Shown in pieces: positions 10,773 through 43,913 of a stretch of 64,000 bases of DNA. Positions within the stretch are counted from its first letter, which is position 1. Each line of letters begins with the position of its first letter. The stretch comes from a virus, in IMG/VR virus record IMGVR_UViG_3300025769_014365, positions 1 through 64,000 of that record. One strand, 5' to 3'. The notes below the pieces were generated by a model. The model had not been told where the DNA came from. It searched no databases and saw only the letters and a program-made list of their open reading frames with translations. Both the position numbers and the translations under genes were made by a program.

Positions 10773-11013
10773 GGAAGAGAAGAAAACGTCGGACGGAGTC
10801 TGGCGCATGGAGGACTGGGACATTAGCGATGTCAACACAGGATCCGCGTCAGAGATGCTGACCATAGATGGCATGAGTTACAGTTTTGGTGAACTAGAGT
10901 TTGAAACTGATCAAAAATTAAGAGAAAAGTACCCAGCGTTAAAAGACGCATGGGATCACTACAACAACGTAAAGAAGATGTGTGAAGCAAAGGAGCAAGA
11001 AGATGAGAATTAA
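10765..11013 (+). CDS. Small acidic conserved phage protein
   Basis: 82 residues, overlapping folE by 8 bases and guaC by 11. The pattern TIDGMSYSFGELEFETDQKL then REKYPALKDAWDHYNNVKKM is a predicted short beta hairpin plus long helix and resembles a small conserved protein of T4-like marine phages (memory, unverified). No catalytic motif. Function unknown. Confidence 0.6.
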   Translation: MGKEEKKTSDGVWRMEDWDISDVNTGSASEMLTIDGMSYSFGELEFETDQKLREKYPALKDAWDHYNNVKKMCEAKEQEDEN

Positions 11014-12052
11014 GGAGGACCTAAAACTAAATTTCGACGATGTGCTGATGGAACCCAAGCGCTCCACTTTGAGTTCTAGGAGAGATGTGGACATGACGAG
11101 GAAATTTAAGTTCCGGAATTCCGGCAAGATAATGGAATTCACTCCAATATTCGCCAGTAACATGGACGGTGTTGGTACATTCTCCATGGCCAAGGTGCTA
11201 CAGGAACACAAGATGATGACTGTTATAACAAAATCAACCACACTGGATCAATGGAAGGAAGCAGTGGGATCAGGCTTGAGACTACAGAGTGTAAGCGTCT
11301 GTACAGGCACCAACAAGATATGGGATCCAGAAGCGGAAGACTATGCGAGGATGCAGGACGTGTTGAGGAGTTTCCCAGATGTCAAGATGATCACTATAGA
11401 TGTTGCTAACGCATACCACCAGAATTTTGTGGATTTCATCAAGATGGTCCGAGACGAATACCCAGACAAGGTCATAGTGGCGGGCAACGTGGTCACACCA
11501 GAGATGGTGGAGGAACTGATCATTAACGGTGCTGACATGGTCAAGATCGGAATAGGACCAGGATCAGTGTGTACCACGAGGACGATGACCGGCATAGGTG
11601 TGCCACAGTTCTCGGCTATTGTGGAATGCGCTGATGCGGCCAACGGCGTTGATGGACACATAATGGCGGATGGCGGATGTGTGTGGCCCGGAGACATAGC
11701 CAAGGCGTTCGGTGGGGGAGCACACGCTGTCATGATAGGTGGAATGCTGGCGGGACACGATGAGTCAGAACAACCAGTTGTGGACGGCAAGGTTGAATTT
11801 TATGGCATGAGCTCAGACAGGGCTCGTGAGAAACACGGCAAGAGAAAAGACGGATACAGGGGCAACGAGGGAAGGTGGATCAGCCTGCCACACAGGGGAC
11901 CTGTGAATCCAACAGTGGAGGACATATTAGGCGGAGTGAGATCAGCGGCCACTTACATCGGTGCCCGTAGACTCAAAGATATGCCCAAGTGTGCCACTTT
12001 CGTTAGGGTCAACAACAACATCAACAGGGTCTATGAGCGTTACACCAAATAG
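11003..12052 (+). CDS. guaC: GMP reductase (GuaC)
   Basis: NADPH-dependent deamination of GMP to IMP. The ATG at 11003 (AAGGAGC ribosome site upstream) gives 349 residues, matching the family length; the frame remains open a little further upstream but that is out of register with the family start (MRIKEDLKLNFDDVL). The active-site loop KIGIGPGSVCTTRTMTGIG (Cys190) followed by PQFSAIVECADAA is specific for GMP reductase rather than IMP dehydrogenase, and no CBS domains are present. GGMLAGHDES and the final ILGGVRSAATYIGA also match. It sits between folE and a phosphoribosyltransferase, suggesting phage control of the guanine pool that feeds FolE. Confidence 0.93.
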   Translation: MRIKEDLKLNFDDVLMEPKRSTLSSRRDVDMTRKFKFRNSGKIMEFTPIFASNMDGVGTFSMAKVLQEHKMMTVITKSTTLDQWKEAVGSGLRLQSVSVCTGTNKIWDPEAEDYARMQDVLRSFPDVKMITIDVANAYHQNFVDFIKMVRDEYPDKVIVAGNVVTPEMVEELIINGADMVKIGIGPGSVCTTRTMTGIGVPQFSAIVECADAANGVDGHIMADGGCVWPGDIAKAFGGGAHAVMIGGMLAGHDESEQPVVDGKVEFYGMSSDRAREKHGKRKDGYRGNEGRWISLPHRGPVNPTVEDILGGVRSAATYIGARRLKDMPKCATFVRVNNNINRVYERYTK

Positions 12053-12374
12053 AGTAGACGAGATAGAGGACAAGATCGAGGCACTTGAAGACAGCCTCAG
12101 TTCGGTGCGCAAGGTCACACCCATACACGATTCCACGTGGTACGTGAAGTGGATCTCTGTTGCGTTCGTTTGCTGTGCGGTGCTGTGTAGGTCAGTCGAA
12201 GAGATACCCAAAATATTTGACGTGTCATTCTCCATAGTGGGCACGGCCGGATGGTTATGGGTGGGATTCAAATGGCATGATAGAGCACTTATAATATTAA
12301 ACACAATTCTACTGGCCATGTTAGTTTCTGGAGCATTTAGATACTACCTTACGTACTTCGGATGGATACAATGA
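12033..12374 (+). CDS. Small membrane protein
   Basis: 113 residues from the ATG at 12033, which overlaps the guaC stop region by 20 bases; the open frame before it runs through guaC in another register and is not used. A short coiled coil (RVDEIEDKIEALEDSL) precedes three hydrophobic stretches (WISVAFVCCAVLC; SIVGTAGWLWVGF; ALIILNTILLAMLVSGAF), so an inner-membrane protein with a cytoplasmic N-terminus is likely. Comparable small membrane proteins are frequent in marine T4-like phages. Function unknown. Confidence 0.65.
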   Translation: MSVTPNRVDEIEDKIEALEDSLSSVRKVTPIHDSTWYVKWISVAFVCCAVLCRSVEEIPKIFDVSFSIVGTAGWLWVGFKWHDRALIILNTILLAMLVSGAFRYYLTYFGWIQ

Positions 12375-12835
12375 CGGAAGAAGTCAACAAGAGCTATTTC
12401 ACCACAGGTCAGATGCGCAATGCACTGATACAGATTGAAGACCAGATGGTGCACAGCAACTGGATGCCAAGCGTTATACTGGGCATTAACAGGGGTGGAT
12501 GTATTCCTGGCGTGTATCTCTCACACAGGCTGAACGTGCCACACGAAGCACTTGACGTGAGATTGCGAGACCATACATCCAAACCCGACCTATCGGTGTT
12601 AGAGAAGGTGTTCGCTTTCCAGAAGAAAATACTGATCATAGATGACATCAACGACTCTGGTGCGACATTCCAATATATCCTAGACAATTTTGGCAAGCCA
12701 GACGACAGGATCCGTTTTGCGGCCTTGATCAACAACAAACCGTCTCCGGTCAAGATGGACTACCATGGTTACCAGATCAACAAGGACGAGGTGCCCGCAT
12801 GGATAGTGTTTCCATGGGAAGATTGGGACAAATAA
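12362..12835 (+). CDS. Phosphoribosyltransferase, purine type (Gpt/Hpt-like)
   Basis: Predicted purine phosphoribosyltransferase, 157 residues; starts at 12362 or 12371 are both possible. The PRPP loop is KKILIIDDINDSGATF (residues ~88-103) with the two acidic residues and the ...SGAT turn. The earlier ILGINRGGCIPGVYLSHRL is the PPi loop/helix pattern of xanthine-guanine phosphoribosyltransferases, and the terminal PAWIVFPWEDW is typical of the Gpt-like group. It would salvage a purine base into a nucleotide. Location after guaC points to a purine-salvage function. Confidence 0.8.
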   Translation: MDTMTEEVNKSYFTTGQMRNALIQIEDQMVHSNWMPSVILGINRGGCIPGVYLSHRLNVPHEALDVRLRDHTSKPDLSVLEKVFAFQKKILIIDDINDSGATFQYILDNFGKPDDRIRFAALINNKPSPVKMDYHGYQINKDEVPAWIVFPWEDWDK

Positions 12836-12881
12836 AATTTTCAAATACCTTTATTGTAGTAAATAAATTTAGGCTACCTGT

Positions 12882-13655
12882 ATGAGATACCTTTTAATAT
12901 TTTCGTTTATCTATCGACATTATCGTAAAAAAATGAATGTGAGACTTTACAGTGACAATTATCTATTAGACGACATTTACCTAGACAAGGAGATATACAC
13001 TAAACGTGTCAACAAAACTAAAATTTCAGCAAAATACAAGAACATAAAAGAGTTCAAATGGTGGTATGCTCATAGGCTAGAACAAACGAATGTAGTCGAT
13101 TATCAAGACAAACCTGAGCAGATACACGTTTATGAAATAGATGATTCGGTTTTAGACGAACAAGTGAGAATTGAAATAGAAGACTACAGTGCCAATAGCA
13201 CCAATGGTTTCATGACCAAATCCAACACTTTAATGATTGATAGTATTTTTCTTTTCCCAAAATGTTTGTTCGAGTCTCACGAAAGTCTACACAAATTAGG
13301 AAATTTGATATACAAAAATCCAAGGCTAGTAGAACAAAACAGACCAAACGCGAAACCCGACGATATTTACAATGACCACATAATCGAATGGCCTGGGAAT
13401 GGAGTCACAATTGAACAGGGACAAGTTAACGTGAACACATGGCACGGAGGAGTAAAAACCTTGACTATACCAGTTTCAAAAAAACACAATATCTACTTTC
13501 TAGATCCATGCAGGAAAAATAGAGTAAATGGACGTCCGGCCAAGTGGGGTTTCAATACAGGCATTTTGGAATACGACGAAATTTTTCGAATACTACCAGA
13601 AAATACACACGAGACGACTGGTACAATTGGCAAATTAAAGATTTTATCTTTATAA
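12882..13655 (+). CDS. Hypothetical protein, AT-rich
   Basis: 257 residues from 12882, or 240 from a second ATG at 12933; neither has a clear ribosome site. The longer form would begin with a hydrophobic stretch (YLLIFSFIY). The body is rich in Lys, Asn, Ile and Tyr with AT-rich codons quite unlike neighbours. Blocks such as KEFKWWYAHRLEQTN, NVNTWHGGVKTL and IYFLDPCRKNRVNGR may be functional but are not recognised. Upstream bases 12836-12881 contain TAAATAAA but no good promoter. Probably a horizontally gained accessory gene. Confidence 0.6.
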   Translation: MRYLLIFSFIYRHYRKKMNVRLYSDNYLLDDIYLDKEIYTKRVNKTKISAKYKNIKEFKWWYAHRLEQTNVVDYQDKPEQIHVYEIDDSVLDEQVRIEIEDYSANSTNGFMTKSNTLMIDSIFLFPKCLFESHESLHKLGNLIYKNPRLVEQNRPNAKPDDIYNDHIIEWPGNGVTIEQGQVNVNTWHGGVKTLTIPVSKKHNIYFLDPCRKNRVNGRPAKWGFNTGILEYDEIFRILPENTHETTGTIGKLKILSL

Positions 13656-13669
13656 ATCAATTTTAAATG

Positions 13670-13699
13670 TTGACTCACCTATCGCTAAAATGCTAAAAT
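13670..13699 (+). promoter_or_regulatory. Sigma70-like promoter of yhhQ
   Basis: TTGACT (13670-13675) and TAAAAT (13694-13699) are separated by 18 bases, with TGC before the -10. A TATAAATC late-type box lies at 13651-13658 across the previous stop codon. A strong AAGGAGG ribosome site follows at 13722-13728. No preQ1 riboswitch stem could be drawn in the leader. Confidence 0.5.
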
Positions 13700-13732
13700 C
13701 TTGATACATTAAACAAACCTTAAGGAGGATTA

Positions 13733-14383
13733 ATGTTAAAATCACTACTGGCAGGCGTTGACAAGACGCTTGTAAGAAATCTAGTAATTCTACACACACT
13801 TGTTATCGCTGTGTCGAACTACCTAGTTACGATCAGATTTGATCTGTTCCCTGGTGCGGACCTTCCGTTGTTTGGATCGTTTCCACTTGCGGCGGCGGCA
13901 TTCACATTTCCGATCGTAGTAGTCGCAACTGACTTGACGGTCAGATTGGTCGGCAAGGAAGCGGGAAGGGCCGTCGTAGCAATGGCGATCATTCCAGCCA
14001 TCGTTGCATCAGTACTGGTACTGTTGGCACTGGGTGATCCACACGCGTATAGGGTTGGATTCGCATCAGGTACGGCATACGCGATTGGTACCATGCTTGA
14101 CGTGTACGTTTTCCAAGCGATCAGAGAAAGATCTGACAATTGGTGGGCGGCACCGGCACTATCGACCATCGCGGCGAACATAATCGACACATACTCGTTC
14201 TTTTACGTGGCGTTCGCAGGATCGTTGGATGCGGAAGGTAACCTATCGTGGATCGGTGAGAACTGGCACGTGGTTGCGCAGAACAACACACTGACCAAGA
14301 TCGTGGTCGGTCTGATAGTGTTCCTACCAGCGTATGGAATACTGTTGAACAGACTGCAGGTCATTGGCAAGAAGAAAAAATAG
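13733..14383 (+). CDS. yhhQ: Queuosine precursor transporter YhhQ (VUT family)
   Basis: Inner-membrane importer of 7-deazaguanine precursors (preQ0/preQ1). 216 residues with about six membrane segments. Diagnostic stretches agree with E. coli YhhQ: SNYLV near the N-terminus, then FPIVVVATDLTVRLVG, TMLDVYVFQAIRER..NWWAAP, STIAANIIDTYSFFYVAF and the ending FLPAYGILLNRL. It has its own promoter, an excellent ribosome site (AAGGAGG) and a GC-rich hairpin after the stop, so it appears to be a single-gene unit. Carrying a precursor importer as well as FolE and QueE suggests the phage can use scavenged deazaguanine. Confidence 0.93.
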   Translation: MLKSLLAGVDKTLVRNLVILHTLVIAVSNYLVTIRFDLFPGADLPLFGSFPLAAAAFTFPIVVVATDLTVRLVGKEAGRAVVAMAIIPAIVASVLVLLALGDPHAYRVGFASGTAYAIGTMLDVYVFQAIRERSDNWWAAPALSTIAANIIDTYSFFYVAFAGSLDAEGNLSWIGENWHVVAQNNTLTKIVVGLIVFLPAYGILLNRLQVIGKKKK

Positions 14384-14390
14384 TCGATCA

Positions 14391-14411
14391 GGGGGAGTTT
14401 TTTTCTCCCCC
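14391..14411 (+). terminator. Strong hairpin after yhhQ
   Basis: GGGGGAG (14391-14397), a 7-T loop (14398-14404) and CTCCCCC (14405-14411) form a perfect 7-bp GC-rich stem. The run of T is in the loop rather than after the stem, so it may act as a transcript-end stabiliser or weak terminator rather than a standard intrinsic terminator. Confidence 0.6.
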
Positions 14412-14412
14412 A

Positions 14413-14442
14413 TTGACAACTCATCTAAATATCCTTTATAAT
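14413..14442 (+). promoter_or_regulatory. Consensus sigma70 promoter with embedded CTAAATA
   Basis: TTGACA (14413-14418) and TATAAT (14437-14442), both perfect hexamers, lie 18 bases apart. CTAAATA sits inside the spacer at 14425-14431, 5 bases before the -10, as in the other composite promoters here. It drives the cupin gene and possibly on to queE. Confidence 0.75.
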
Positions 14443-14467
14443 ACAAGTATAGGAAGGTACAAAATTT

Positions 14468-14863
14468 ATGGGAAATAAGGCAGGAAAGATTTGGGGAGAA
14501 ACAGAACTGATACTAGCGAACAGTTCATGTGAGTTCCACAGGATAGATTACAAGAAGGGTGGTGTTTGTTCCAAACACAAACACGAATGGAAATGGAACG
14601 GCTTCTACGTGGTGTCGGGGCAAATGAAGATTAGGGTTTGGGCGAATGACTACGACCTCGTGGACGAGACCATACTTAACCCAGGCGACTTTACAGCCGT
14701 CAAACCAGGACAATATCACACGTTCGAAGGACTCGAGGACGGCGTGGCTTTTGAACTTTACTGGGCCAATTTCTCACACAACGACATAGTGAGGGAGAAC
14801 ACTGGTTACATGAAGGAGACGGACGGCAAGGTGGTAAGGTTAGACAAGAGCAAGAAGAAATAG
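14468..14863 (+). CDS. Cupin-domain protein
   Basis: 131 residues forming a single cupin barrel. Motif 1 is readable as HKHEWKWNGFYVVSGQMKIRV (H.H....E/N.....G); motif 2 as PGDFTAVKPGQYHTFEGL (PGD...P...H). These histidines normally hold a metal. The C-terminus is lysine-rich (DKSKKK). It begins a unit led by a perfect sigma70 promoter and is followed within two bases by the next gene. Substrate unknown; sugar-isomerase and storage-like cupins share this layout. Confidence 0.8.
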   Translation: MGNKAGKIWGETELILANSSCEFHRIDYKKGGVCSKHKHEWKWNGFYVVSGQMKIRVWANDYDLVDETILNPGDFTAVKPGQYHTFEGLEDGVAFELYWANFSHNDIVRENTGYMKETDGKVVRLDKSKKK

Positions 14864-14864
14864 T

Positions 14865-15287
14865 GTGAACATCTACACCATATACGCCGACCACAAAGAC
14901 AACATCACAGCACATGACTTCGTGTACAAGATGAAATTGTTCCTAGATAAGTTAGTCGATCACAGGAAAATGTCCACTTACAGGATCACTAGGATGAAAC
15001 TGGGTTTCAGGTCAATGGATTTACCTGAATTCAGGATTGACATGGAGTTTGACACTATGCAGGCTCTTGATGATGCTATGACTATTACCATTGCTGACAA
15101 AAAAGTAGATCAGGTACATGTTGGATTCAATCAGTATGTGAATACCGATACCATACAACACTTTTTGTACAGAGATTTTCCAGATGATCTAAATAAGCCA
15201 AAGTTGACAGAACAGCAAGACCAGTTTACAATAGATGAGATAGTCAAGGCAACAAAAAATATAAAACCAGAATTATGGAAAGAATAA
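14865..15287 (+). CDS. Hypothetical protein, DUF6614-like
   Basis: 140 residues beginning at a GTG one base after the cupin stop, with AAGAAG as a weak ribosome site. The N-terminal NIYTIYADHKD, the segment YRITRMKLGFRSMDLPEFRI and FDTMQALDDAM suggest a ferredoxin-like alpha/beta fold of the DUF6614 kind (recalled pattern). The C-terminal part becomes AT-richer. It overlaps queE by 13 bases. It does not contain QueD zinc motifs, despite its position. Function unknown. Confidence 0.6.
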   Translation: MNIYTIYADHKDNITAHDFVYKMKLFLDKLVDHRKMSTYRITRMKLGFRSMDLPEFRIDMEFDTMQALDDAMTITIADKKVDQVHVGFNQYVNTDTIQHFLYRDFPDDLNKPKLTEQQDQFTIDEIVKATKNIKPELWKE

Positions 15288-16162
15288 GGTATTCGGAAAT
15301 ATTCTACAGTGTACAAGGCGAGGGGAGGTTCGTTGGAGTGCCTTCGGTGTTCTTTAGGACGTTTGGCTGTAATTTCCACTGCCATGGCTTTGGACAGGGT
15401 AGAGATAGATCAAAATGGATCCAACCCGAAGACATGCCCTACAACACACAGGACATCACAAACATCAAACACATATCCGAACTACCGGTTGTGAACATAG
15501 GTTGCGACGCTTCGGCCAGCTGGAGCGCTAGATACAAGGACCTAGTGGATTGGGATCCTGTAGACGAGATAGCAAAAAAGGTCACAGCACACACACCAGA
15601 GAACCGATGGACCTGTGCGAACGGACAGGATGTTCATTTCATAATCACGGGCGGTGAACCCATGATGTGGCAGAGACAGATCGAGGCACTGATCAGGCAA
15701 CCAGAATTCAACGACTTAAAGAACATCACCGTAGAGACCAACTGCACACAGGCATGGAAGGACAACTTCGACAAGTTCATGCATGGACTGACCGCGGGCG
15801 ATTACACTAAGGAACCTGTACACGTGACATGGTCAACATCACCAAAACTGAGCATATCAGGCGAGGCATGGGAGAAGGCCATAAGAGCGGATGTGGCGAG
15901 GCAATACTCACTGATACCCAACACACACCTATACTTCAAGTTCGTGGTGCAGGACGAACAGGATCTTAAGGAAGTGGATTCGGCAAGGGAGGCATACTCT
16001 AAGGCGGGGGTCACTGGAGACATATATCTCATGGCTGTAGGGGCCACACAGGAAGGTCAATCTAAGACATCATCACAGGTGGCAGAGATGGCCATGAAGA
16101 ACGGCTACAAATACTCCCCAAGACTGCACGTGGACCTGTTCGGAAATAAATGGGGTACATAA
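15275..16162 (+). CDS. queE: 7-carboxy-7-deazaguanine synthase (QueE), phage type
   Basis: Radical SAM ring-contraction enzyme making CDG from carboxytetrahydropterin. N-terminal YSEIFYSVQGEG and GVPSVFFRTFGCNFHC are QueE signatures; GGEPMMW and VETNCTQ match the SAM and substrate strands. The canonical CxxxCxxC is not continuous: Cys32 and Cys36 are followed by HGFGQG, and the third candidate is Cys77 in NIGCDASASW, about 40 residues later. This long-insert pattern resembles other phage QueE proteins (family memory). 295 residues, longer than the ~210-220 of many bacterial forms, because of that insert. It supplies the 7-deazaguanine pathway with FolE and the DpdA-like enzyme. QueC is not in the window. 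Confidence 0.92.
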   Translation: MERIRYSEIFYSVQGEGRFVGVPSVFFRTFGCNFHCHGFGQGRDRSKWIQPEDMPYNTQDITNIKHISELPVVNIGCDASASWSARYKDLVDWDPVDEIAKKVTAHTPENRWTCANGQDVHFIITGGEPMMWQRQIEALIRQPEFNDLKNITVETNCTQAWKDNFDKFMHGLTAGDYTKEPVHVTWSTSPKLSISGEAWEKAIRADVARQYSLIPNTHLYFKFVVQDEQDLKEVDSAREAYSKAGVTGDIYLMAVGATQEGQSKTSSQVAEMAMKNGYKYSPRLHVDLFGNKWGT

Positions 16163-16244: not shown

Positions 16245-17681
16245 ATGGAACTTGCTATATTAATGGCGGGTATCGTCTATGGCTTGATCATTGGCCTGAT
16301 ACCAGCCGCGGGAGCAACAACAGGTCTTATCACACTGTTTGGATTCATGCCCTACTTCGTGGGCGACCCCTACCTGGGCGTGATATTCTGTGTGGCAGTC
16401 GTTGCTTCATCAACAACCGGTGATTCATTCAGTGGTGTGCTACTCGGCATACCCGGAGCCAACTCTGCGGCCGCAACTATGGTGGATGGCTTCCCCATGG
16501 CCAAAAACGGAGAGGCAACACGAGCATTATCAGCCGCCATAACCTCCAGCACTGCCAACGGATTGTTTTGGGGATCACTTACATTTTTATTCTTGCCTTG
16601 GTACACCAAAGTTGTGATGTACATGGGCGTACCTGAACTGTGGGCGCTGGTGCTGTTGGCATTTGTGACTGTTGGATTCGTTTCAACTAGGAAATATATT
16701 AGAAGCACACTAGCCATAGTGTTAGGAGTGACAATAGGACTGGTAGGTGTTGATGTCAATAATGTTCCTCGTTTCACCCTGGGATGGAGATATCTCGAGG
16801 ACGGTGTACAAATATTACCTTTCGTGGCAGGACTGTTCGCCATACCTGAACTGTGGGATGGATGGTTCAACAGAAAAAAGACAACAACAATACGGGCGGA
16901 ACACGGCAGTTGGCATGATCTTAAACAGGGAATGAAAGACACACTTATCTGTTGGAAGGACAGCCTCAGAGGAGGGGCAATAGGTTCTTTTATTGGATTG
17001 TTACCAGGACTGGGTGGAGCAATGGCAGACTGGTTGGCATACGGTGCCACGGTTGCGGCCAATCCCAAGGAGAAGTTTGGTGTGGGCAACGTCAAAGGCG
17101 TGATAGGTGCCGAGGGGGCCAACAACGCACAGAAGGCCTCGTCATTCATTCCAACCGTGCTGTTTGGCATACCGGGTGCCAGTTTCGCCGCGATACTGAT
17201 GGGACTTTTCTTATACCTGGGCATAGACCTAGGATCACCTGACACATTCCACGACGACAGATTATTTGACAGCATGACATTTGCTTTCTTGCTGGGAACG
17301 ATAATTACCGCCGTCATCTGTTATGGACTGGCATATTTCGCAGGTTGGGTCACACGTATTCCATACGTGTATTACTTTCCTTTCATACTTGCTGTGATAA
17401 TCTGGGCCACGCTACAGTACACCGGTGGTTGGGAGGACCTCGCGGTGCTCTTCGCATTCTCGATCTTGGGAGTGCTGTGTAAGAAATTCCAAGTCAGCAG
17501 GCCAGCACTGCTGATCGGATTCCTGTTGAGTGACAGGATCTACAATCTCACTTACCAACTAACAACGCTCCACACGGTGACGGATCTGATCACAAGACCG
17601 ATCTTTATTTCCATAATGATCTGTGTTATACTGTTGCTGTACTGGGGCATAACAAAAAGGAGCAGAATAGACTATGCTTAA
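16245..17681 (+). CDS. tctA: Tripartite tricarboxylate transporter permease (TctA family)
   Basis: Large membrane subunit of a TTT importer for citrate-like acids. 478 residues, near the family's ~500, with about 11-12 hydrophobic segments. The signature is clear: GVLLGIPGANSAAATMVDG, then FPMAKNGEATRAL, and a second inverted-repeat copy LLPGLGGAMADWLAYG...EGANNAQKASSFIPTVLFGIPGAS. The start lies at the first hydrophobic helix (MELAILMAGIVYG). The stop overlaps tctC by 8 bases, so the two are coupled. The small TctB subunit is not present. Phage carriage of such a transporter is unusual; host acquisition as an auxiliary metabolic gene is the likely explanation. Confidence 0.92.
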   Translation: MELAILMAGIVYGLIIGLIPAAGATTGLITLFGFMPYFVGDPYLGVIFCVAVVASSTTGDSFSGVLLGIPGANSAAATMVDGFPMAKNGEATRALSAAITSSTANGLFWGSLTFLFLPWYTKVVMYMGVPELWALVLLAFVTVGFVSTRKYIRSTLAIVLGVTIGLVGVDVNNVPRFTLGWRYLEDGVQILPFVAGLFAIPELWDGWFNRKKTTTIRAEHGSWHDLKQGMKDTLICWKDSLRGGAIGSFIGLLPGLGGAMADWLAYGATVAANPKEKFGVGNVKGVIGAEGANNAQKASSFIPTVLFGIPGASFAAILMGLFLYLGIDLGSPDTFHDDRLFDSMTFAFLLGTIITAVICYGLAYFAGWVTRIPYVYYFPFILAVIIWATLQYTGGWEDLAVLFAFSILGVLCKKFQVSRPALLIGFLLSDRIYNLTYQLTTLHTVTDLITRPIFISIMICVILLLYWGITKRSRIDYA

Positions 17682-18720
17682 GAAAACGATAATGGCGTTG
17701 ATCATAATGACAACAACCGCGATGGCCGACTACAACTTGATTGTGCCTCAAAAACCATCTGGTGGAACTTCTGTGTGGGCACAGATAGTTGTGGCTGAAT
17801 GGGAGAAACACCTGGGTGAGAAGATCAATCTCGTCTACAAGCCAGGTGCTAGAGACCAACTGGGACCAAACGAGTTCCAAAACAAACTGAGATTCGATGA
17901 CCGGACCATACTGGTGTCACACGGTGGTAACGGTATATCATATCTCGTTGAACCCGTGGACTACAACTACCTTGATTGGGAGTCGGTGGGACAGATGAAT
18001 CTCAACATCATAGTGGGCGCCAGGAACAAGGCAGACACAAAGAACGGACCTATCCAGTTTCCATCAGGATCTGGGATGACACCGGAGATCATGGCGATCG
18101 TGATGTTGCTCACAGGACCCAACGATGATCCGGTGAAGACGTTTGAAGAAAAAATCGTATGGGTGAAAGGCATGAAAGGGTCTGAGAGGAGACTCGCATT
18201 CATCAGGGGTGACCTAAACGCTACACGAGAAAATCCTGCCGCGTACAAGAAACACGTGATGCCAGTGATTGAGAAAGGCGATGCCTACACTTGGTTCCAT
18301 CACGGACTCTTGAATGTGAAAACGGGTAAGCACGACAACGATCCAAACTTCACGGAACCAACATTCGAGGCACTGTATGAATCCACACACGGAGTTGCAC
18401 CGAGCGGTGACTTCTATGACGCCTACAAACTGGTCAAGAGTTGGAGGGACGCACTACAGAAGGCTTTCTGGGTGAACAAGGGCAATCCCAACCGGGACAA
18501 GCTCGTTGCCGCACTTGACAGGATGATCAAGGATCCAGAGTCTGTGGCCGCGATAGAGAAAAAGGTTGGCAAGTACGAATGGAGGACGGGTGCGGAGGGC
18601 GACGCCGCGGTGAGGACCCTGAAGTCATTCATCACTCCAGGTGCGTTGAAAACACTATCTGATTTTGGAAAGAACCAGTTGGGTTACAATGCCGTCTACA
18701 AGGAAGAGTTGACCAAATAA
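17674..18720 (+). CDS. tctC: Periplasmic solute-binding protein (TctC/Bug family)
   Basis: Extracytoplasmic receptor partner of TctA. The N-terminus is a classical signal peptide (MLKKTIMALIIMTTTAMA, cleavage likely before DYN). The mature start YNLIVPQKPSGGTSVWAQIV and LVYKPGARDQLGPNEF match the Bug pattern (IVPY.PGG..D..AR; ENRPGAGG..G). 348 residues, slightly longer than the ~300-325 usual. It binds an organic acid in other systems; the ligand here is unknown. Its stop overlaps the next ATG by one base. It completes the receptor/permease pair without TctB. Confidence 0.88.
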   Translation: MLKKTIMALIIMTTTAMADYNLIVPQKPSGGTSVWAQIVVAEWEKHLGEKINLVYKPGARDQLGPNEFQNKLRFDDRTILVSHGGNGISYLVEPVDYNYLDWESVGQMNLNIIVGARNKADTKNGPIQFPSGSGMTPEIMAIVMLLTGPNDDPVKTFEEKIVWVKGMKGSERRLAFIRGDLNATRENPAAYKKHVMPVIEKGDAYTWFHHGLLNVKTGKHDNDPNFTEPTFEALYESTHGVAPSGDFYDAYKLVKSWRDALQKAFWVNKGNPNRDKLVAALDRMIKDPESVAAIEKKVGKYEWRTGAEGDAAVRTLKSFITPGALKTLSDFGKNQLGYNAVYKEELTK

Positions 18721-19304
18721 TGTACATACTGTTCACAGGGGCGCCGGGATCAAAGTGGAGTAGTGTTGTCAAGAACATCTACTGGAGTGCGGACATAGAT
18801 CACACAGATTATTCTGAGGCAAGGACCTACTGGCACGATGCCGACACCCCTGGACGCAAACACCTCATGCACATTGGAGCATACTGGGATCCGGGAATGG
18901 AGTTTGATGTAGACGATTGGAACGGACCTTTCTCGGGCACAGGCAAGAGGATCGTGAAAGCACACACATTCGCACACCAATTGGACAAACTGAAAGACAA
19001 GGGATATCCCATTGTGATGGTCTATAGGAATGACTTCGAGTGTTTGGAGTGGTGGAAACTTTGCGGGGAATTCACGATCACATACCCTAACTACCAACAC
19101 TTCGAAAATCTGGAAAAGATGTGGGGACACATCCAAGCGGAAAACAGAGACACCATGCAGTTCATACGTGACAACAAAGACAGGATAACAAAAGTCAAGG
19201 ACAACGTGGACCTCTGCAGATTATTGGAAATTAGTTTCCCAGACACCAAGGGCAGGATACATAACTACGCACAGAAAGAAGTCGAGGTATATGTCTACAA
19301 GTAA
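18720..19304 (+). CDS. P-loop sulfotransferase-like protein
   Basis: 194 residues. The N-terminal ILFTGAPGSKWSSVVKNIY looks like the PAPS-binding P-loop (GxPxSGTTxL-type), and the later YPIVMVYRNDFECLEWW matches the second PAPS motif (P.V.V.R.P.D...S). Similar proteins with GAPGSKWSS occur in marine T4-like phages (memory). It would transfer sulfate from PAPS to a sugar or protein, but key residues differ from characterised enzymes, so activity is uncertain. The start overlaps the tctC stop (TAATG) and the gene overlaps the 2OG oxygenase downstream by 14 bases. Confidence 0.55.
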   Translation: MYILFTGAPGSKWSSVVKNIYWSADIDHTDYSEARTYWHDADTPGRKHLMHIGAYWDPGMEFDVDDWNGPFSGTGKRIVKAHTFAHQLDKLKDKGYPIVMVYRNDFECLEWWKLCGEFTITYPNYQHFENLEKMWGHIQAENRDTMQFIRDNKDRITKVKDNVDLCRLLEISFPDTKGRIHNYAQKEVEVYVYK

Positions 19305-19947
19305 TTGGGAAGAGTCAAAAGCGAGGAGCGACTACCACTTCAACAAGTGGCACCAGGACACCGACTGCGTCCAACACCTGGGCAGTTTCACGGGTGGCTG
19401 GCAGACCGAGATACAGTCGGTGATCGATGACGCCAAACCCCTCAACTGGGCCAATCGTAGGGAGGGCACGGGCAGGGAAAACACCAACATCAACGTGGAG
19501 GCCGAGGAGAACGACCTCAGGAACGCGGGCGCCGATCCCAAGATGACAATTTACCGAGGTCTCAAGGACTTCACAAAATGTCCTACTCTACAGAGGATGA
19601 CTGACTACTTCTCACTGGAACCAGTGCAATCCAAACTACACATACAGTTTACGGGCGAGGTGTTGAACATGCACATAGACAAACTGTACGACCTAGACGC
19701 TGACCCAAATAATGTTGTCCGTATAATGATCATGCTTCAGGATTGGGAACCAGGCCAGTTCTTGATATATGGTAATGAGCAGTTCGACAGATGGCGGGCA
19801 GGAGACATTCATAAGTTTGACTGGCAAAACATTCCACACGCTACAGCAAACGCCAGCAATAAACCAAGACCCATGTTGGTAATCACAGGTGTGATTACAG
19901 ACAAGACCAAGTATATACTTTCAAAGCCAATTAAGAAAAAGATTTAA
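19291..19947 (+). CDS. 2-oxoglutarate/Fe(II) oxygenase, Asp/Asn hydroxylase-like
   Basis: 218 residues. The iron-binding triad can be read: HID (His128, Asp130) in LNMHIDKLYDL, and His183 in FDWQNIPHATANAS, with Arg193 (KPRPMLVITG) in position to hold 2-oxoglutarate. The intervening RIMIMLQDWEPGQFLIYGN and GDIHKFDW are double-stranded beta-helix strands. Such enzymes hydroxylate protein side chains or small molecules using O2. It lies after the sulfotransferase-like gene, overlapping it. Substrate unknown. Another member of the same superfamily is at 53864-54532. Confidence 0.8.
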   Translation: MSTSNWEESKARSDYHFNKWHQDTDCVQHLGSFTGGWQTEIQSVIDDAKPLNWANRREGTGRENTNINVEAEENDLRNAGADPKMTIYRGLKDFTKCPTLQRMTDYFSLEPVQSKLHIQFTGEVLNMHIDKLYDLDADPNNVVRIMIMLQDWEPGQFLIYGNEQFDRWRAGDIHKFDWQNIPHATANASNKPRPMLVITGVITDKTKYILSKPIKKKI

Positions 19948-19979: not shown

Positions 19980-20960
19980 ATGAACAAAAACTTATTCGCA
20001 GTGTGTTGTGACCAGTTTAATCTAGGCACAACTTTTATTATCTGGTCCCTACATTATGTGACGGACCAAACGGAGTTTTATTCACTTGAAAAAGATAGAG
20101 TGTGTTCCATACCAAATAATCCATTAAGAAACGGCACAGCTCATTCTATGGAAATCAACGAGGTCAAATCGATTACAAAAATTAAAGATACTATTGACCA
20201 ATTAAAGGCCAACGGAAATTTTAATCATTTTAGATTTGTCCCAAAGGAAAACTCCCTTGTTGAGTATTCCCAACAAAACGAAAAATTCCAAGAAGCAATG
20301 GCCACACACAATATCAAGGTCGTTAACATTGGTTGTGAAAGGTTACAAGGTCTGATCGGATTCCTAAGATACAATACCGAGGACCTTTCATGGCAAAATG
20401 ATATGAAGAAAGTAAAAAAACATTGTCTGAAATACTGGCCTTCCTTTATGGAAAATTCTCATATATTTCCAAACAAGCTGAACACTTGGCACGATATCAG
20501 AGAAAATATCGCTTTCAACATCAGGCCATATGACCACTGGAAGCAATGGAAGGATAAAAAGTCGACTCGAGAAAATGTCCATGACTGTAAATTTAAATCT
20601 TTCTTGTTTGACCCTGAAAAAGAAATCTCAAATATTTTAAAATTCCTAGGAATTAGCCCTATGAAAAGAATTGCACAATGGTTAGAAGTTCATCATAAAT
20701 GGCTTGCTAATATAGGACATTACATTGTTTTTTGTGATGACATAGAAAAAATAATAAGTCATATACTGAACAACCAGGACATGGATCTCGGAAAATACAA
20801 AATGACCGTGTTAAAAGAAGCAGTCCTACTCCATTTTTTGATGTACAAACACGACCTAAACCTTCATACAAAAGTGGAACACTTACCAAAAAATGCCAAA
20901 GACATATGTAAACTGTTGACAAAAAATAATAGGACCGGAATAGAAAAACTTTATAACTAA
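19980..20960 (+). CDS. Hypothetical AT-rich protein, possibly sulfotransferase-like
   Basis: 326 residues in AT-rich codons, distinct from the flanking phage genes. The opening FAVCCDQFNLGTTFIIWSLH has a short G-T-T turn after a strand, reminiscent of a PAPS-type P-loop, but no second motif is convincing. The middle is rich in Trp/His/Lys (HCLKYWPSFMEN; YDHWKQWKDKK) and the end is helical. It has its own composite promoter. It is grouped with an AT-rich methyltransferase, so both may have arrived together. Function unknown. Confidence 0.6.
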   Translation: MNKNLFAVCCDQFNLGTTFIIWSLHYVTDQTEFYSLEKDRVCSIPNNPLRNGTAHSMEINEVKSITKIKDTIDQLKANGNFNHFRFVPKENSLVEYSQQNEKFQEAMATHNIKVVNIGCERLQGLIGFLRYNTEDLSWQNDMKKVKKHCLKYWPSFMENSHIFPNKLNTWHDIRENIAFNIRPYDHWKQWKDKKSTRENVHDCKFKSFLFDPEKEISNILKFLGISPMKRIAQWLEVHHKWLANIGHYIVFCDDIEKIISHILNNQDMDLGKYKMTVLKEAVLLHFLMYKHDLNLHTKVEHLPKNAKDICKLLTKNNRTGIEKLYN

Positions 20961-20966
20961 CAACAC

Positions 20967-21626
20967 ATGAATAAAAAAATATTAGAACAATTAATAAAAG
21001 ATTCACAAAACGATCTATCTAAAATCACAAGCCCATACATTAGTCAAACTTTCGGAGTATCTGTACAAAGGTGTGATACACTGGAGCAGTATGCCCAGGT
21101 TATAGATGATGCCTGCCTACACAAGTATTTTTCAAAGTATTGGTATAACGATATGAAAAAATGGAAATATTCGGGACTAGCACTTGTGGACGAAGTAAAC
21201 AGCCTAAAACCACGAGCAGTGTTAGACGTTGGGTGTGGCTACAATGAATTCAAAGGCAAGATTCAAAATCTAATAGGAATTGACCCTTATAATGACCGTG
21301 CAGACCTGCAGGTCAGCACCATTGACTTTAAAACGGAACAAAAGTTTGATGTGATATTGTGCTTAGGATCAGTGAACTTTGGTGACAGAGACAAGATAAT
21401 AGCAGAAGTAAACAGATGTGTTAGTCTATTAGAGCAAAATGGCACAATGTTCTTCAGAGTAAATCCAGGAATACAGCATGACAAGTCAGAAGCCAAATGG
21501 ATTGAATTCTTTGCCTGGAACGTTCCATTTATCATAGAGTTAGCGGAAAAATTTCAATTAAAAATATTAGATATTAGAGATGACACCAATCAAAGAAAAT
21601 ACTTTGTGCTGAAAAAAACAAGTTGA
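20967..21626 (+). CDS. Class I SAM-dependent methyltransferase, AT-rich
   Basis: 219 residues. AVLDVGCGYNEFKGKI (about residue 80) is the SAM-binding motif I; LIGIDPYND gives the acidic residue of motif II; KFDVILCLGSVNFG is the post-II strand, and LLEQNGTMFFRVNPG is motif III-like. The first ~70 residues are helical. It begins 6 bases after the preceding AT-rich gene. Substrate unknown; proximity to sulfotransferase- and glycosyltransferase-like genes suggests small-molecule or glycan decoration rather than DNA methylation. Confidence 0.75.
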   Translation: MNKKILEQLIKDSQNDLSKITSPYISQTFGVSVQRCDTLEQYAQVIDDACLHKYFSKYWYNDMKKWKYSGLALVDEVNSLKPRAVLDVGCGYNEFKGKIQNLIGIDPYNDRADLQVSTIDFKTEQKFDVILCLGSVNFGDRDKIIAEVNRCVSLLEQNGTMFFRVNPGIQHDKSEAKWIEFFAWNVPFIIELAEKFQLKILDIRDDTNQRKYFVLKKTS

Positions 21627-39344: not shown

Positions 39345-40138
39345 CTTTGTCCTCCTGTTATTTTTTCAAAAGTTGGTAACATTAATTTTACAGCATCTGA
39401 GTGTGCTTGGTCAAGCGGATGTGTTGTGGCACGTTCATAATCGTTTAACAGTGCCCATTGGTTGAATCCCATCATCCTGTCCCCAAAAGAGTACCATTTG
39501 TCAAGATCTATCTCGGTATGAAGTGCGTTCATCAATCCATCCATCTCCTTGTGGTGTGTAAACTTGTTGTAGAAAAGTGTGTTGTCAGCCAACGTGAAAA
39601 AGAATGGTATTCTTTTCTTCTCCAATATATTCTGTAGCCACGTGATCGATTTCCAACTGAGGTAAATCTCATGATACTCGTTGGCCGCATATTTGTACAG
39701 GCTATCTGCGAAATCACGCACACCAGTTTTTAACATACTATCTGTCCTCTTCTCCCAGATCTCCTGTTGTATTTGTGACTTGGCCAATTTGTCCATGGCT
39801 TCATCATGTCCTGCCCTAGTGTCCCATGGCGACACAGAAACCCATCTATCACGTCCCAACATCTTGTGTTCTGGCATCGCCCAGTCATACCTAGATGGGA
39901 AACTCCACATCACAGCCACCGCACCTATGTCTTGTGTATCGTGCACGGCAGTGAAAACACGCCTGGCTATGGCCTGATTGCCCAATCCTCCAACAGCAGT
40001 GCACACGTACTCCATGCCTGCGTGTTCACACAAGCGATGTGCCCAAGTTTTGCGTGATGGTGTGTTGCCGTTCACATCGTCACTAAGCTCATTGCCAAAC
40101 GTGAAACTGCAACCACCTGCTATAAATTTCTTATTCAT
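39341..40138 (-). CDS. SGNH/GDSL-like hydrolase, cluster copy 1
   Basis: 265 residues. FIAGGCSFTFGNEL contains the nucleophile block (Ser11); VGGLGNQAIARRV matches block II-III (G..N); AVAVMWSFPSRYDW is the central strand; and HPLDQAHSDAV supplies the DxxH pair (Asp, His). So all catalytic positions are in place. Possible roles are acyl removal or transfer on a sugar or peptide. It overlaps the radical SAM gene upstream by 8 bases. Related layout to 45227 and 25930. Confidence 0.75.
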   Translation of the reverse strand: MNKKFIAGGCSFTFGNELSDDVNGNTPSRKTWAHRLCEHAGMEYVCTAVGGLGNQAIARRVFTAVHDTQDIGAVAVMWSFPSRYDWAMPEHKMLGRDRWVSVSPWDTRAGHDEAMDKLAKSQIQQEIWEKRTDSMLKTGVRDFADSLYKYAANEYHEIYLSWKSITWLQNILEKKRIPFFFTLADNTLFYNKFTHHKEMDGLMNALHTEIDLDKWYSFGDRMMGFNQWALLNDYERATTHPLDQAHSDAVKLMLPTFEKITGGQR

Positions 40139-41297
40139 ATATTCTTAAAACCTTATTTAAAAGGGGAAACATGTCTCCAAAATTTTCATTTCTGTACCTA
40201 TCTGTCTGCAGTATGCGTGCCTTCCTCTGTTCTCTGAGCTCGGGGGTGTCCCTGTCCGCCGCGTTCATGAAACGTATGCTGGGCTGGTAGTCAGTCAGCA
40301 TGTGATATCTATCTGTAACAATCTCCTTGACCTGCCGCGGCAGTGTCTGTATGTTGAAAACGTCAGGATCAAAACAAGTGTTGACGTAAAAGAATTTGGG
40401 CTGGTACTGTGCGACCCACAAAGCCATTTTGGCCCAGTTGAACACGTTGAATATCGATACTGTTGAACATATCTGGAAGTCCATGTTGTCTGTTTTCATT
40501 TCTTTGAATTTAACCAGATTTTGATTCACTTCCCTCCACTTGGCAGGATGTCTCTGGTACTCGAAAGGTGCCCCAACGTCGTCAATGCTGAACGCCACTT
40601 CCACGTGTTTGAAATAACTCCACAGGTCAAATATTTCCTGTGGTGGTAACTGCGTGCCGTTGGTGTTGTAGTGTATGTCTATTTTCTTGGCGTATCCTTT
40701 CTCAACACAGTGCATCAAGATCTTGAAGTGATCTTTGATCATGAACGGTTCTCCTCCTGTGAACTCGAAATACTCCACGTGCTTGAGATCTTCCTGCAGG
40801 TCCTCGAAGAACTGTGGGTTACGCTTGGGCCATCCGCCCTCTTTTAAATTTTGCCTTGCTACGGGATTCTCACCGTAGTCCAATTCCTCCTGGGCCCATT
40901 TCGAAGAACTCCAAGATCCACATATCCTACACTTGAGGTTACACACGTTGCCCAACTTAAAGTCAATGAACTTCAGCGTTGGCTCGCTATCGGGTGTCCA
41001 GCCCGTCAGGCTCTTCTGCATCTTGTATATGCTGTTCTGTCTCTTGGACGTCTTGCCCGCGTCCTCCTCCTGCCAACAGCTCTGGCAACCTGCCGGGCGT
41101 TCTCCTTTACGGAACTGTTCGCGGAGATCGGTCATGTATGCCGTGTCCTGTATGGATTTGAGGCTCTGTTTATACACCTTCACGCCAGGCACACTGCCTT
41201 TGTACAGACAACACGGAGATGCGCCTCCATTAACATCCACTTCCAGGTGCGTCCATGGCAACGGGCACACGTTTGATTTTATATACTTGTCCACCAT
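40131..41297 (-). CDS. Radical SAM protein with N-terminal twitch/SPASM-like domain, E
   Basis: 388 residues. N-terminal cysteine domain: Cys11 (CPLPWTHLEVDVNGG), Cys29-Cys30 (PCCLYKG), Cys71 and Cys74 (CQSC), the order expected of a SPASM/twitch Fe-S site but before the barrel. Radical SAM site: Cys119-x3-Cys123-x2-Cys126 (NVCNLKCRICG), then FEFTGGEPFMI (SAM-binding GGE) and NTNGTQLP. It belongs to the N-twitch radical SAM family (family knowledge). Substrate unknown. Overlaps copy D by 19 bases. One of five paralogs in the block. Confidence 0.88.
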   Translation of the reverse strand: MVDKYIKSNVCPLPWTHLEVDVNGGASPCCLYKGSVPGVKVYKQSLKSIQDTAYMTDLREQFRKGERPAGCQSCWQEEDAGKTSKRQNSIYKMQKSLTGWTPDSEPTLKFIDFKLGNVCNLKCRICGSWSSSKWAQEELDYGENPVARQNLKEGGWPKRNPQFFEDLQEDLKHVEYFEFTGGEPFMIKDHFKILMHCVEKGYAKKIDIHYNTNGTQLPPQEIFDLWSYFKHVEVAFSIDDVGAPFEYQRHPAKWREVNQNLVKFKEMKTDNMDFQICSTVSIFNVFNWAKMALWVAQYQPKFFYVNTCFDPDVFNIQTLPRQVKEIVTDRYHMLTDYQPSIRFMNAADRDTPELREQRKARILQTDRYRNENFGDMFPLLNKVLRIYE

Positions 41298-42643
41298 TCC
41301 AATGCTTTCTTGTTCTTGCGCAATATTTTCTTTATGTCTGTGCCACGTATGCGATCTAGCCTTTCGATCTCTGCCTTGCCGTCCTTTTGACCTTTCTTGT
41401 ACACACCCTCGTCATAGACTAGTTCATTGTTCCTCTTCTGTCTCTGCATCTCATCCAACTGTGAGAAGAAATTGTTCAAATTCTTATTCTTGTATTTGAT
41501 CGTTTTCTCCCTCACGTCGTCTATGATCTCACTCATGATGTCGTACGGCATGAACAACGGTGCCATGGCATTGTCCTCTGAGAAGTTGAAGACCTGCTTG
41601 GTCAGGAGTTCTATATCCAGTTCATTGCTGAGCAAAACCATGTTTTCAAGATCAAACAATCCTGGCATGGTTATCGTGAGGTCCAACTGTATCCGCTGAT
41701 GCTGGCCTTTTACATACTTCAAACCATACCTCATGTTTTCTAACCATTCCGAGTACTTCAATCCTGTCCTGATGTACTCTCCCACCTGCCCTGTACCGTC
41801 AATGGACGCACAGATCTGGAATTGTGGATAGTGTTTCAGTATGTCATCAAACAAGTTTTTACCATAGAAGTTTATTCGGCTCATGTTGGAATTATATCTG
41901 GCCAGCACCCTGTCTGAGTATCCTAGTTCTTTGATCCGCTCCATTGCTGTCCAGTGTATTTTCCACATTAATGGCTCTCCTCCACACCAGTACAACTCCG
42001 TGATCCTTTTTTGCTCAACCGCTGACGTGAACTCTTTGACCACTTGCTGATCATGAAATCTTTCTAATTTTTCTTTTATGTCTTTCCTACCCCATATCCT
42101 GTGGTTCTTGTAAACGTACTCTGGGTCGATTTGCACTCCCTCCACGCCCAGACCGTGCTTCTTGTTCTCGGCCTCCCACGTACTGCTCAACATGTCACCA
42201 CACATCCTACAACTGAAGTTACAGAGATTAGAGAAACGATAATCAAAACTCTGCACCTTCATGCTCGTCGCACCAGTATCATCCGTAGTGTCAAACGCTT
42301 CGTCCACTTTGTGCCTGTACAAGTGGTTGAAGTGTTGCCTGTACACTTGTTCGTTCAACAACTTGTCATTGCACACAGCACACTGAGGTATCTCCTCTCC
42401 TGCGAGCAACTTCTGTCTCACACTCCTCATGTATGGCGAGTTCCAATGCTCGTCGAGTGTTGATAGATTGAGGGTATCGTTGTGCCCCGAGGGATCCATG
42501 GTGTCAATGTACTGTTTGAAGTTTGTCGATGATTCCCTAGAACTGCAACACAGTCTTCTTTCCATCTGCGGAGACAGGTATGTGTGGGTCCACGGCGCCA
42601 TGCAGAAGGTCTTGTTGCCTTCTGAAGGTTTAATCCGTTTCAT
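41279..42643 (-). CDS. Radical SAM protein with N-terminal twitch/SPASM-like domain, D
   Basis: 454 residues. Same plan as its neighbours: Cys14 (CMAPWTHTYLSP), Cys32-Cys33, Cys88 and Cys91 (CAVC) form the N-terminal auxiliary site; Cys141-x3-Cys145-x2-Cys148 (NLCNFSCRMCG) is the SAM cluster; LYWCGGEPLMW is the SAM-binding motif. The C-terminal ~150 residues are helical and charged. Overlaps copies C and E by 14 and 19 bases, so the genes are translated in series. Reaction unknown. Confidence 0.88.
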   Translation of the reverse strand: MKRIKPSEGNKTFCMAPWTHTYLSPQMERRLCCSSRESSTNFKQYIDTMDPSGHNDTLNLSTLDEHWNSPYMRSVRQKLLAGEEIPQCAVCNDKLLNEQVYRQHFNHLYRHKVDEAFDTTDDTGATSMKVQSFDYRFSNLCNFSCRMCGDMLSSTWEAENKKHGLGVEGVQIDPEYVYKNHRIWGRKDIKEKLERFHDQQVVKEFTSAVEQKRITELYWCGGEPLMWKIHWTAMERIKELGYSDRVLARYNSNMSRINFYGKNLFDDILKHYPQFQICASIDGTGQVGEYIRTGLKYSEWLENMRYGLKYVKGQHQRIQLDLTITMPGLFDLENMVLLSNELDIELLTKQVFNFSEDNAMAPLFMPYDIMSEIIDDVREKTIKYKNKNLNNFFSQLDEMQRQKRNNELVYDEGVYKKGQKDGKAEIERLDRIRGTDIKKILRKNKKALEWWTSI

Positions 42644-43913
42644 ACAATTCCTTCAATTCTGGAAAGGTATCCAGCATGTCCTCGTCTCGGATGTCATCTA
42701 GCCTTTTCATCCAGCTCTTGAACTGATCTATGTGCTCATAGTTGTCCCTGCGCATCATGTAATCTATTCCTGACTGGAAACCCTTCGTGGCCCTTGTTAG
42801 TGGATCCAGGGGTGCCAGCCATTCCAAGTGCTTCTCTATCTTGGCCTTGATTTTCTCTTTGTATGACAGAGGGGCAAGGTCTATCCTCTGCCCAAAAGGA
42901 GACTGCAACAGATTGAAATTGAAATCCTGTGGTTTGAGCAGACCCATGTCCACCCAGTTCCTGTGGAAGTCAGTTATGTGCCAGGCATTGATAAGTCCCA
43001 CAGTGGAACTGATGTAGAAGTCCACCTGCGGACACACTTCCAACATCCTTTTCCTGTTGGCCACCACGTCCTCCCATACTGTGCCTTTCCTCATGAGTTC
43101 TGCACGTTTTCCTTCCGCGTCTAGGCTCGCACCTATAGAGACCGTGTCAAACTTTTTCCACAATTCTAGCACGTCCATGTCCTTGAACTTTGTCTTGGTG
43201 AAATTGGTGTTGTATATCAGTCTCACGTGATACATCTTTCTCTTGTCCAGTTCTTTCAGTATCCTGTAGTGTTCCTCCATTATCAAAGGTTCACCACCTG
43301 CGAAATAGAACTGTTCCACGTGATCGAACTGTGCCAACATCTGTTGCCATATGTCATCGGAATTTCTGCCAACACGCAATATCTTGGCATGTTTTGGAGG
43401 TTCACCCGCCAGTTTCTTATGGTCCTCGTACCAGTTTGAACTGAACCATGTGCCACAACTCCTGCAGGCCAGGTTACACAGGTTGCTGAATCGTATGTCC
43501 CAATACTTGATAACGAAGTCTGCGCTTCCGTCCTCCTTGGTGTTGTCCACCATTCCTATGTTGTGTCCAAAATGCTTGTTGGAACTCATACGTAGACTGA
43601 AGAATCCTGACTTCTCTTGATCATAACACTTAGTGCAGTTCTTACTCGGTTTGTTTGACAGCATGTTCTGTCTCAACTGCCTCATGTCTTTGCCATTGAA
43701 TACCGTCTCCATGGAATCTTCGTTGAGGTTGCCAACTGGGTATTCGTCTATGGCGAAACAACAGGGATAGGCCCGTCCATCGGGGAAGGCATGAAGATGC
43801 AACCATGGCATCATGCAGAACGTTTCACTGTCTATCAACAGCTCGCGCTGTCTGTCGGTCATGTCTTTTATTTTTAACTTCTCGGGCTCTTTGGCCCCAT
43901 AATCATATGCCAC
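42630..43913 (-). CDS. Radical SAM protein with N-terminal twitch/SPASM-like domain, C
   Basis: 427 residues, the clearest copy. N-terminus: Cys33 (FCMMPWLHLHAFPDGRAYP), Cys51-Cys52, GNLNEDSMETVFN, then Cys93 and Cys96 (CTKC), matching a SPASM/twitch module moved to the N-terminus. SAM site Cys146-x3-Cys150-x2-Cys153 (NLCNLACRSCG), FYFAGGEPLIM and IYNTNFT. Overlaps copy B by 11 bases. Such enzymes commonly act on peptides or on sugars/alcohols; the substrate here is unknown. Confidence 0.9.
   Translation of the reverse strand: MAYDYGAKEPEKLKIKDMTDRQRELLIDSETFCMMPWLHLHAFPDGRAYPCCFAIDEYPVGNLNEDSMETVFNGKDMRQLRQNMLSNKPSKNCTKCYDQEKSGFFSLRMSSNKHFGHNIGMVDNTKEDGSADFVIKYWDIRFSNLCNLACRSCGTWFSSNWYEDHKKLAGEPPKHAKILRVGRNSDDIWQQMLAQFDHVEQFYFAGGEPLIMEEHYRILKELDKRKMYHVRLIYNTNFTKTKFKDMDVLELWKKFDTVSIGASLDAEGKRAELMRKGTVWEDVVANRKRMLEVCPQVDFYISSTVGLINAWHITDFHRNWVDMGLLKPQDFNFNLLQSPFGQRIDLAPLSYKEKIKAKIEKHLEWLAPLDPLTRATKGFQSGIDYMMRRDNYEHIDQFKSWMKRLDDIRDEDMLDTFPELKELYETD

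Follow-up and report, generated by a model that had tools for sequence, protein, structure and literature searches.

What does a phage gain from a TctA-type permease and a TctC-type binding protein that are encoded side by side without TctB, the small membrane subunit of such transporters? The pair lies in a 64,000-bp window (the whole stretch of DNA analysed here, bases 1 to 64,000 of a 96,195-bp viral record). A preliminary description of the window had proposed that both genes are intact, that such genes are rare in phages, and that the phage may boost organic-acid uptake, with a host TctB or with TctA working alone. The observation of an intact, phage-borne TctA/TctC pair without detectable TctB was confirmed, but the frame around it proved too narrow, as it missed a larger conserved enzyme module.

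The permease gene (16245 to 17681, + strand) is uninterrupted along its whole length and encodes 478 amino acids without a fused TctB tail. The product matched the Pfam TctA profile (PF01970) with 313.7 bits (cut-off, 28.9) over profile positions 1 to 422 of 423. A duplicated G-x3-G-x3-G-x2-P-G-x-G motif, one per half, is a trait of the TctA family (PMC5812351). The second signature is canonical (G243-x3-G247-x3-G251-LL-P-G-L-G), and the first has P-A-A-G in place of P-G-x-G with its spacing kept (16 of 16 aligned phage copies), so that the two signatures originally noticed are both there if the one conserved substitution in the first is allowed for. Judged from its sequence, TctA is a true, full-length, and intact TctA-family permease. 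Comparison of relatives with the window genes gave median dN/dS values of 0.054 for TctA and 0.039 for TctC (median dS ~1 and median dN 0.04 to 0.06 for the two genes). Both are thus under strong purifying selection (dN/dS ~0.05), indicating that the pair did not arise by chance and that its genes are in use. The absence of frameshifts in TctA and the constraint on both genes agree with the earlier view that they are intact.

The binding protein gene (17674 to 18720, + strand; 348 amino acids) has a start that overlaps the TctA stop by 8 nt. As previously described, it has a signal-like N-terminal segment, which is kept in 33 relatives. The sequence had no match in Pfam, PHROG, NCBIfam, or PDB, and the Pfam TctC profile (PF03401) gave nothing up to an E value of 10; a bacterial relative that adjoins TctA likewise misses this profile. 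The assignment as a TctC/Bug-type periplasmic binding protein comes from a structure model, fold matches, and hhalign. The AlphaFold model, for which 33 phage sequences were used, is of moderate confidence (pTM, 0.71; mean pLDDT, 65). All 13 Foldseek matches at an E value of 0.001 or better were TctC/Bug-type binding proteins, among them TphC, 2dvz, MatC, a terephthalate-binding protein, BugD, an oxoadipate-bound protein of R. palustris, and a Polaromonas TctC. VIA-align of the model reached Z values of up to 10.0 over 235 residues, and hhalign of phage TctC against bacterial TctA-adjacent binding proteins gave 97.5 to 98.1%. The model, moderate in confidence as it is, places the protein in the two-lobed TctC/Bug fold. 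A VKGM-x-GxERRLAF stretch (residues 164 to 176) is invariant and represents a candidate anion site.

TctB is poorly conserved. A profile search for it (PF07331) elsewhere in the 96,195-bp record and in 27 related viral records, most of which are fragments, found none, consistent with the initial report that the small subunit is missing. No small protein with at least three predicted membrane helices was conserved beside the pair in the loci that carry it. A three-helix DUF6552 open reading frame (11961 to 12374) was rejected as a hidden TctB because it has a homologue in Pelagibacter phage HTVC008M, where no TctA was found. A second candidate, a ∼147-amino-acid, two-helix open reading frame beside many of the loci, was rejected because it lies on the opposite strand and has no significant match in the window's record. 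We conclude that TctB is likely absent from the virus, with the proviso that the records searched are mostly fragments.

A scan of IMG/VR identified 88 stretches that encode TctA relatives and 218 that encode TctC relatives (the best 80 of each were retained). Annotated phage records contained no TctC relative, and TctA matches in annotated or isolate phage records were just 24 to 31% identical, several of them enteric or gut and mostly unannotated. Contrary to the first impression of rarity, these genes are therefore common in viral metagenome contigs and essentially absent from isolate records. The DNA polymerases nearest to that of the window (51 to 46%) are those of Sinorhizobium phage Phosso and Agrobacterium phage Atu_ph07, which are phages of 470 to 490 kb, suggesting that the 96,195-bp record is probably a fragment of a larger genome. 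In a second lineage of carriers, the terminase shares 69% identity with its counterparts in Methylophilales phage Melnitz and HTVC008M. When bacterial genome contigs were scanned for TctC, the sole find was a phage contig binned in a Pelagibacter (SAR11) metagenome-assembled genome (MAG), which bears the pair and its partners beside a phage gene. This MAG (L178/G028) appears to be phage contaminated: the contig in question is C36, and another, C78, contains a DNA polymerase fragment with 97% identity. A SAR11-like or similar proteobacterium is a plausible host.

Further genes follow the pair on the + strand. The first (g18720; 18720 to 19304; 194 amino acids) is a near-constant partner and encodes a P-loop protein (model pLDDT, 87.5) that appears sulfotransferase-like, weakly so by both sequence and fold. 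Its top Foldseek match was a sulfotransferase with a weak E value of 0.023, VIA-align ranked tyrosylprotein sulfotransferase first (Z, 9.8) with guanylate kinases scoring nearly as high (within 1), and its relatives matched Sulfotransfer_3 below the cut-off (E, 4e-4 to 0.035). The next gene (g19291; 19291 to 19947; 218 amino acids), a frequent partner, encodes a putative 2-oxoglutarate/Fe(II) oxygenase. H128-x-D130, H183, and R193 are invariant in six sequences, including two at 25 to 28% identity, and H-x-D with a further H downstream, itself followed after ten residues by Arg, is the pattern of these oxygenases. The window protein had no Pfam match and no curated family above the cut-off, so the assignment follows from this motif. 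An optional insert (19980 to 20960; 326 amino acids) has weak Sulfotransfer_3 similarity (Pfam E, 0.013, below the cut-off) and ∼44% identical homologues in a few loci. The last gene (20967 to 21626; 219 amino acids) is a frequent partner, located upstream or downstream of the pair; its match to Methyltransf_23 is below the cut-off (E, 7.8e-4; relatives, down to 8.6e-6), and the weak but repeated family matches indicate a SAM-dependent methyltransferase. Sequence searches of PDB with the TctA, TctC, oxygenase, and sulfotransferase-like queries returned nothing useful.

The pair and these enzymes form a cassette, of which we counted ∼98 loci (some contigs twice). TctA was present in 98 of 98, TctC in 97, the 194-amino-acid protein in 93, the methyltransferase in 90, and the 218-amino-acid oxygenase-like protein in 62. 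The cassette occurs in three main contexts: 59 loci adjoin a phrog_455 gene, ∼25 have terminase on one side and tail sheath on the other, and 10, including relatives of the window arrangement, are situated between QueE and g21657/RNaseH. Two vacant sites were found. A 172-kb record (G005) that has 50 of 83 proteins in common with the window's record (median identity, 64%; DNA polymerase, 84%) has QueE directly followed by g21657 at 138 to 139 kb and carries its cassette at 4.6 kb instead, a move within one phage lineage, and in HTVC008M terminase and tail sheath are adjacent, with an 80-nt gap. Based on these vacant sites and the three contexts, the pair and enzymes relocate as one block among at least three genomic sites.

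Upstream of the pair, the window encodes (10982 to 16162) IMPDH/GMP-reductase, phosphoribosyltransferase, YhhQ-like transporter, cupin, DUF6614, and QueE. A link to queuosine through the last four was rejected, as they accompany the cassette in only ∼10 loci and G005 keeps QueE without the cassette alongside. A T4-type late promoter was also rejected, since in 120 locus copies the 110 nt upstream of TctA held no TATAAATA. Elsewhere in the window (40131 to 47336, − strand) are four to five paralogous-looking proteins of 390 to 456 amino acids with Cys-rich N termini, judged by eye to be possibly of the radical-SAM/SPASM type. Another phage contig encodes a SufB-like protein (L265:15232-16665; SUFBD_core, 256 bits).

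Two overlapping viral scans with the sulfotransferase-like protein recovered 454 and 303 confirmed stretches, contigs of 216 to 354 kb included. Among 73 distant loci, 53 encode a methyltransferase, 29 a TctC-like binding protein, 10 a sodium:solute symporter, and ∼10 TctA and/or TctC of the window's family; 24 have no transporter within ∼3 kb, some because the contig ends. One lone TctC-like protein matched Pfam TctC with 77.9 bits, one sodium:solute symporter scored 88.6 bits, and none of the 12 lone-TctC records searched contained TctA. On a 167-kb contig (L507), overlapping genes encode the sulfotransferase-like protein, TctC, TctA, and the oxygenase, preceded by a methyltransferase on the opposite strand, and TctA and TctC are 44% identical to those of the window. 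Elsewhere, a single 432-amino-acid chain (L506:3001-4299) fuses a sulfotransferase-like part (49%) to a 2-oxoglutarate-oxygenase-like part (41%). G005 also encodes a divergent second TctA (26%), paired with a putative binding protein of its own; two oxygenases of the same family immediately precede this pair (L265:9451-12981, the only contig found to have it). The transport slot is thus interchangeable (orphan TctC, sodium:solute symporter, or divergent TctA/TctC), and the enzyme partners stay.

PAPS, the donor used by sulfotransferases, is produced through ATP sulfurylase and APS kinase. In one locus (L508), oxygenase, symporter, APS kinase (55 bits; cut-off, 21.1), nucleotidyltransferase (weak ATP-sulfurylase similarity), and sulfotransferase-like genes follow one another, the last four overlapping stop to start. 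L508:12-3633 and L458:58-3633 are tight operons of SSF symporter, APS kinase, ATP-sulfurylase-like, and sulfotransferase-like genes, with apparent viral PAPS synthesis. Taken together, these loci allow a tentative generalization, which we consider possible rather than probable: large phages from several habitats would have in common a biosynthetic or modification module, comprising sulfotransferase, 2-oxoglutarate oxygenase, methyltransferase, and in some cases PAPS synthesis. Its importer would vary among TctA/TctC, orphan TctC, and sodium:solute symporter, and the virus would have its host take in a precursor and turn it into a modified product that serves infection.

For the window itself, placing the pair within a larger conserved module shifts its likely purpose from generic organic-acid feeding towards serving specific modifying enzymes, and we favor, with a probability of roughly 0.55, the reading that TctA/TctC is the uptake arm of a mobile phage modification module. 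In its favor are the purifying selection, the TctC fold, the conserved neighbors and their relocation as a block, the exchange of transporters beside retained enzymes, the PAPS-synthesis-like genes of L508, the fusion in L506, and the second, unrelated pair of G005 with its oxygenases. A conserved pump and enzyme set in many large marine phages suggests that the host is made to import a small acid and then process it. In a Gram-negative host under infection, TctC would capture a small anionic molecule in the periplasm and pass it to TctA, which, if active and inward directed, would import it by ion symport, with TctB borrowed from the host or dispensable. In the cytoplasm, the enzymes may then process this molecule or draw on it to modify a different target. 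Sulfation chemistry, including any sulfotransfer, is our leading guess, drawn from PAPS-synthesis-like and other neighbors in other phages. Known TTT substrates include carboxylates and sulfolactate (PMC5812351), so the presumed substrate class is not fixed by the family. The weakest step is that from co-inheritance to a shared pathway, as co-inheritance alone is no proof, and the lack of the oxygenase in about a third of cassette loci counts against the uptake-arm reading, as do the weak sulfotransferase assignment, the 24 of 73 distant loci with no transporter within ∼3 kb, and the TctB requirement of known TTT systems (PMC5812351).

An unlikely alternative is that the pair feeds the cell an organic acid as carbon or energy together with a host TctB, the enzymes being incidental hitchhikers. 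This matches the best-known function of the family, and a host TctB could be on hand: 82 of 297 genomes of the order Pelagibacterales (about a quarter of the sample) have their own TctA at an E value of 1e-40, and one SAR11 MAG has the gene order TctC-TctB-TctA. Orphan TctC in other phages would also imply reliance on host permeases. However, the enzymes persist when the block relocates and when the transporter is exchanged, which hitchhiking does not predict, and the phage and host pairs are only distantly related. More improbable still is uptake of 2-oxoglutarate, or a precursor, by the pair to supply the 2-oxoglutarate-dependent oxygenases of the phage with their co-substrate. Two unrelated phage TctA pairs adjoin oxygenases of one family, and the annotation of the related phage HTVC008M lists many 2OG-Fe(II) oxygenases, but the oxygenase is missing from that same third of cassettes, cells produce 2-oxoglutarate themselves, and the sodium:solute symporter swap gives no hint of this substrate. 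We give very little weight to a role without import, in which one of the two proteins changes the surface of the cell and, for instance, masks a receptor or excludes other phages; orphan binding proteins without TctA and the failure to find TctB would fit, whereas TctA is a full permease under strong constraint and a symporter occupies the same slot in other phages. Finally, host DNA or an assembly chimera can be dismissed despite the bacterial type of the genes and the copy binned with Pelagibacter, because the cassette occurs in dozens of contigs adjoining terminase, tail sheath, tail tube, and portal genes, its position in other phages, with terminase on one side and tail sheath on the other, bears out its phage-borne nature, and phage TctAs form one clade far from every bacterial TctA found.

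On the preferred uptake-arm reading, many marine phages keep a predicted binding-protein-dependent secondary transporter that selection strongly constrains and that the same enzymes almost always accompany. To our knowledge, phage-encoded transporters are usually treated as single auxiliary genes. Should the imported solute be what these enzymes act on, this would be a virus-encoded import-and-modify pathway in ocean bacteria. No description of such a transporter-enzyme module was found in the open-access literature searched. By their descriptions, the nearest viral precedents are TctA-type or tricarboxylate-transport genes on marine viral contigs: tctA as a domain hit in SUP05 viral contigs, with its role stated as unknown (PMC4164917), and tricarboxylate transport genes near norB/nirK on a myovirus scaffold (PMC8115048). 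Both are passing mentions without the pair, the module, the TctB question, or a mechanism. A pelagimyophage study alludes to substrate-transport genes, naming none in its text (PMC7029224).

Among bacterial systems, the closest TctAs found (31 to 36% identical, in 385 class-level and 297 order-level genomes around the SAR11 MAG) are mostly the fused TctA-TctB permeases of Alphaproteobacteria, Pelagibacterales included, many of which adjoin TctC of the same subfamily as phage TctC. Of the 42 nearest bacterial TctAs examined, 36 exceed 600 amino acids and have a C-terminal tail, usually with four predicted helices; in an alignment of 22 bacterial TctAs and the window protein, 8 members matched Pfam TctB (best E, 2.5e-7). 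The phage TctA stops before this TctB-like tail. Such TctA-TctB-like fusions were common in the sampled Alphaproteobacteria (L186-L213 and L235-L246); a 2018 review reported one (PMC5812351). The fused permeases also differ in their frequent PrpF/4-oxalomesaconate-tautomerase-like neighbors, which come after several of the loci; a substrate guess from these was rejected, the relatives being too distant for transfer. Phage TctAs, which lack the tail, form their one clade at the end of a very long branch (4.9 changes per site, an uncertain estimate). Recent host capture was rejected, as there is no close bacterial TctA in either genome set. The phage lineage may either have shed a fused TctB or have arisen from an ancestor without the fusion.

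Compared with TctCBA (TC 2.A.80), the phage system likewise combines a TctA-family permease with an adjacent TctC/Bug-fold periplasmic binding protein. It differs in the order TctA-TctC, a TctC below Pfam detection, P-A-A-G in the first TctA motif, the link to modifying enzymes, and the lack of a recognizable TctB. Known TTT systems require TctB (PMC5812351), which is reported to be essential in one system studied; the phage pair apparently lacks this subunit. Since no TctB was found and TctC has no Pfam match, we call the pair, as far as its sequences indicate, TTT-like with a true TctA-family permease, rather than a TTT system. As such, it provides a natural case in which to test the dependence of TctA on TctB in this transporter family.
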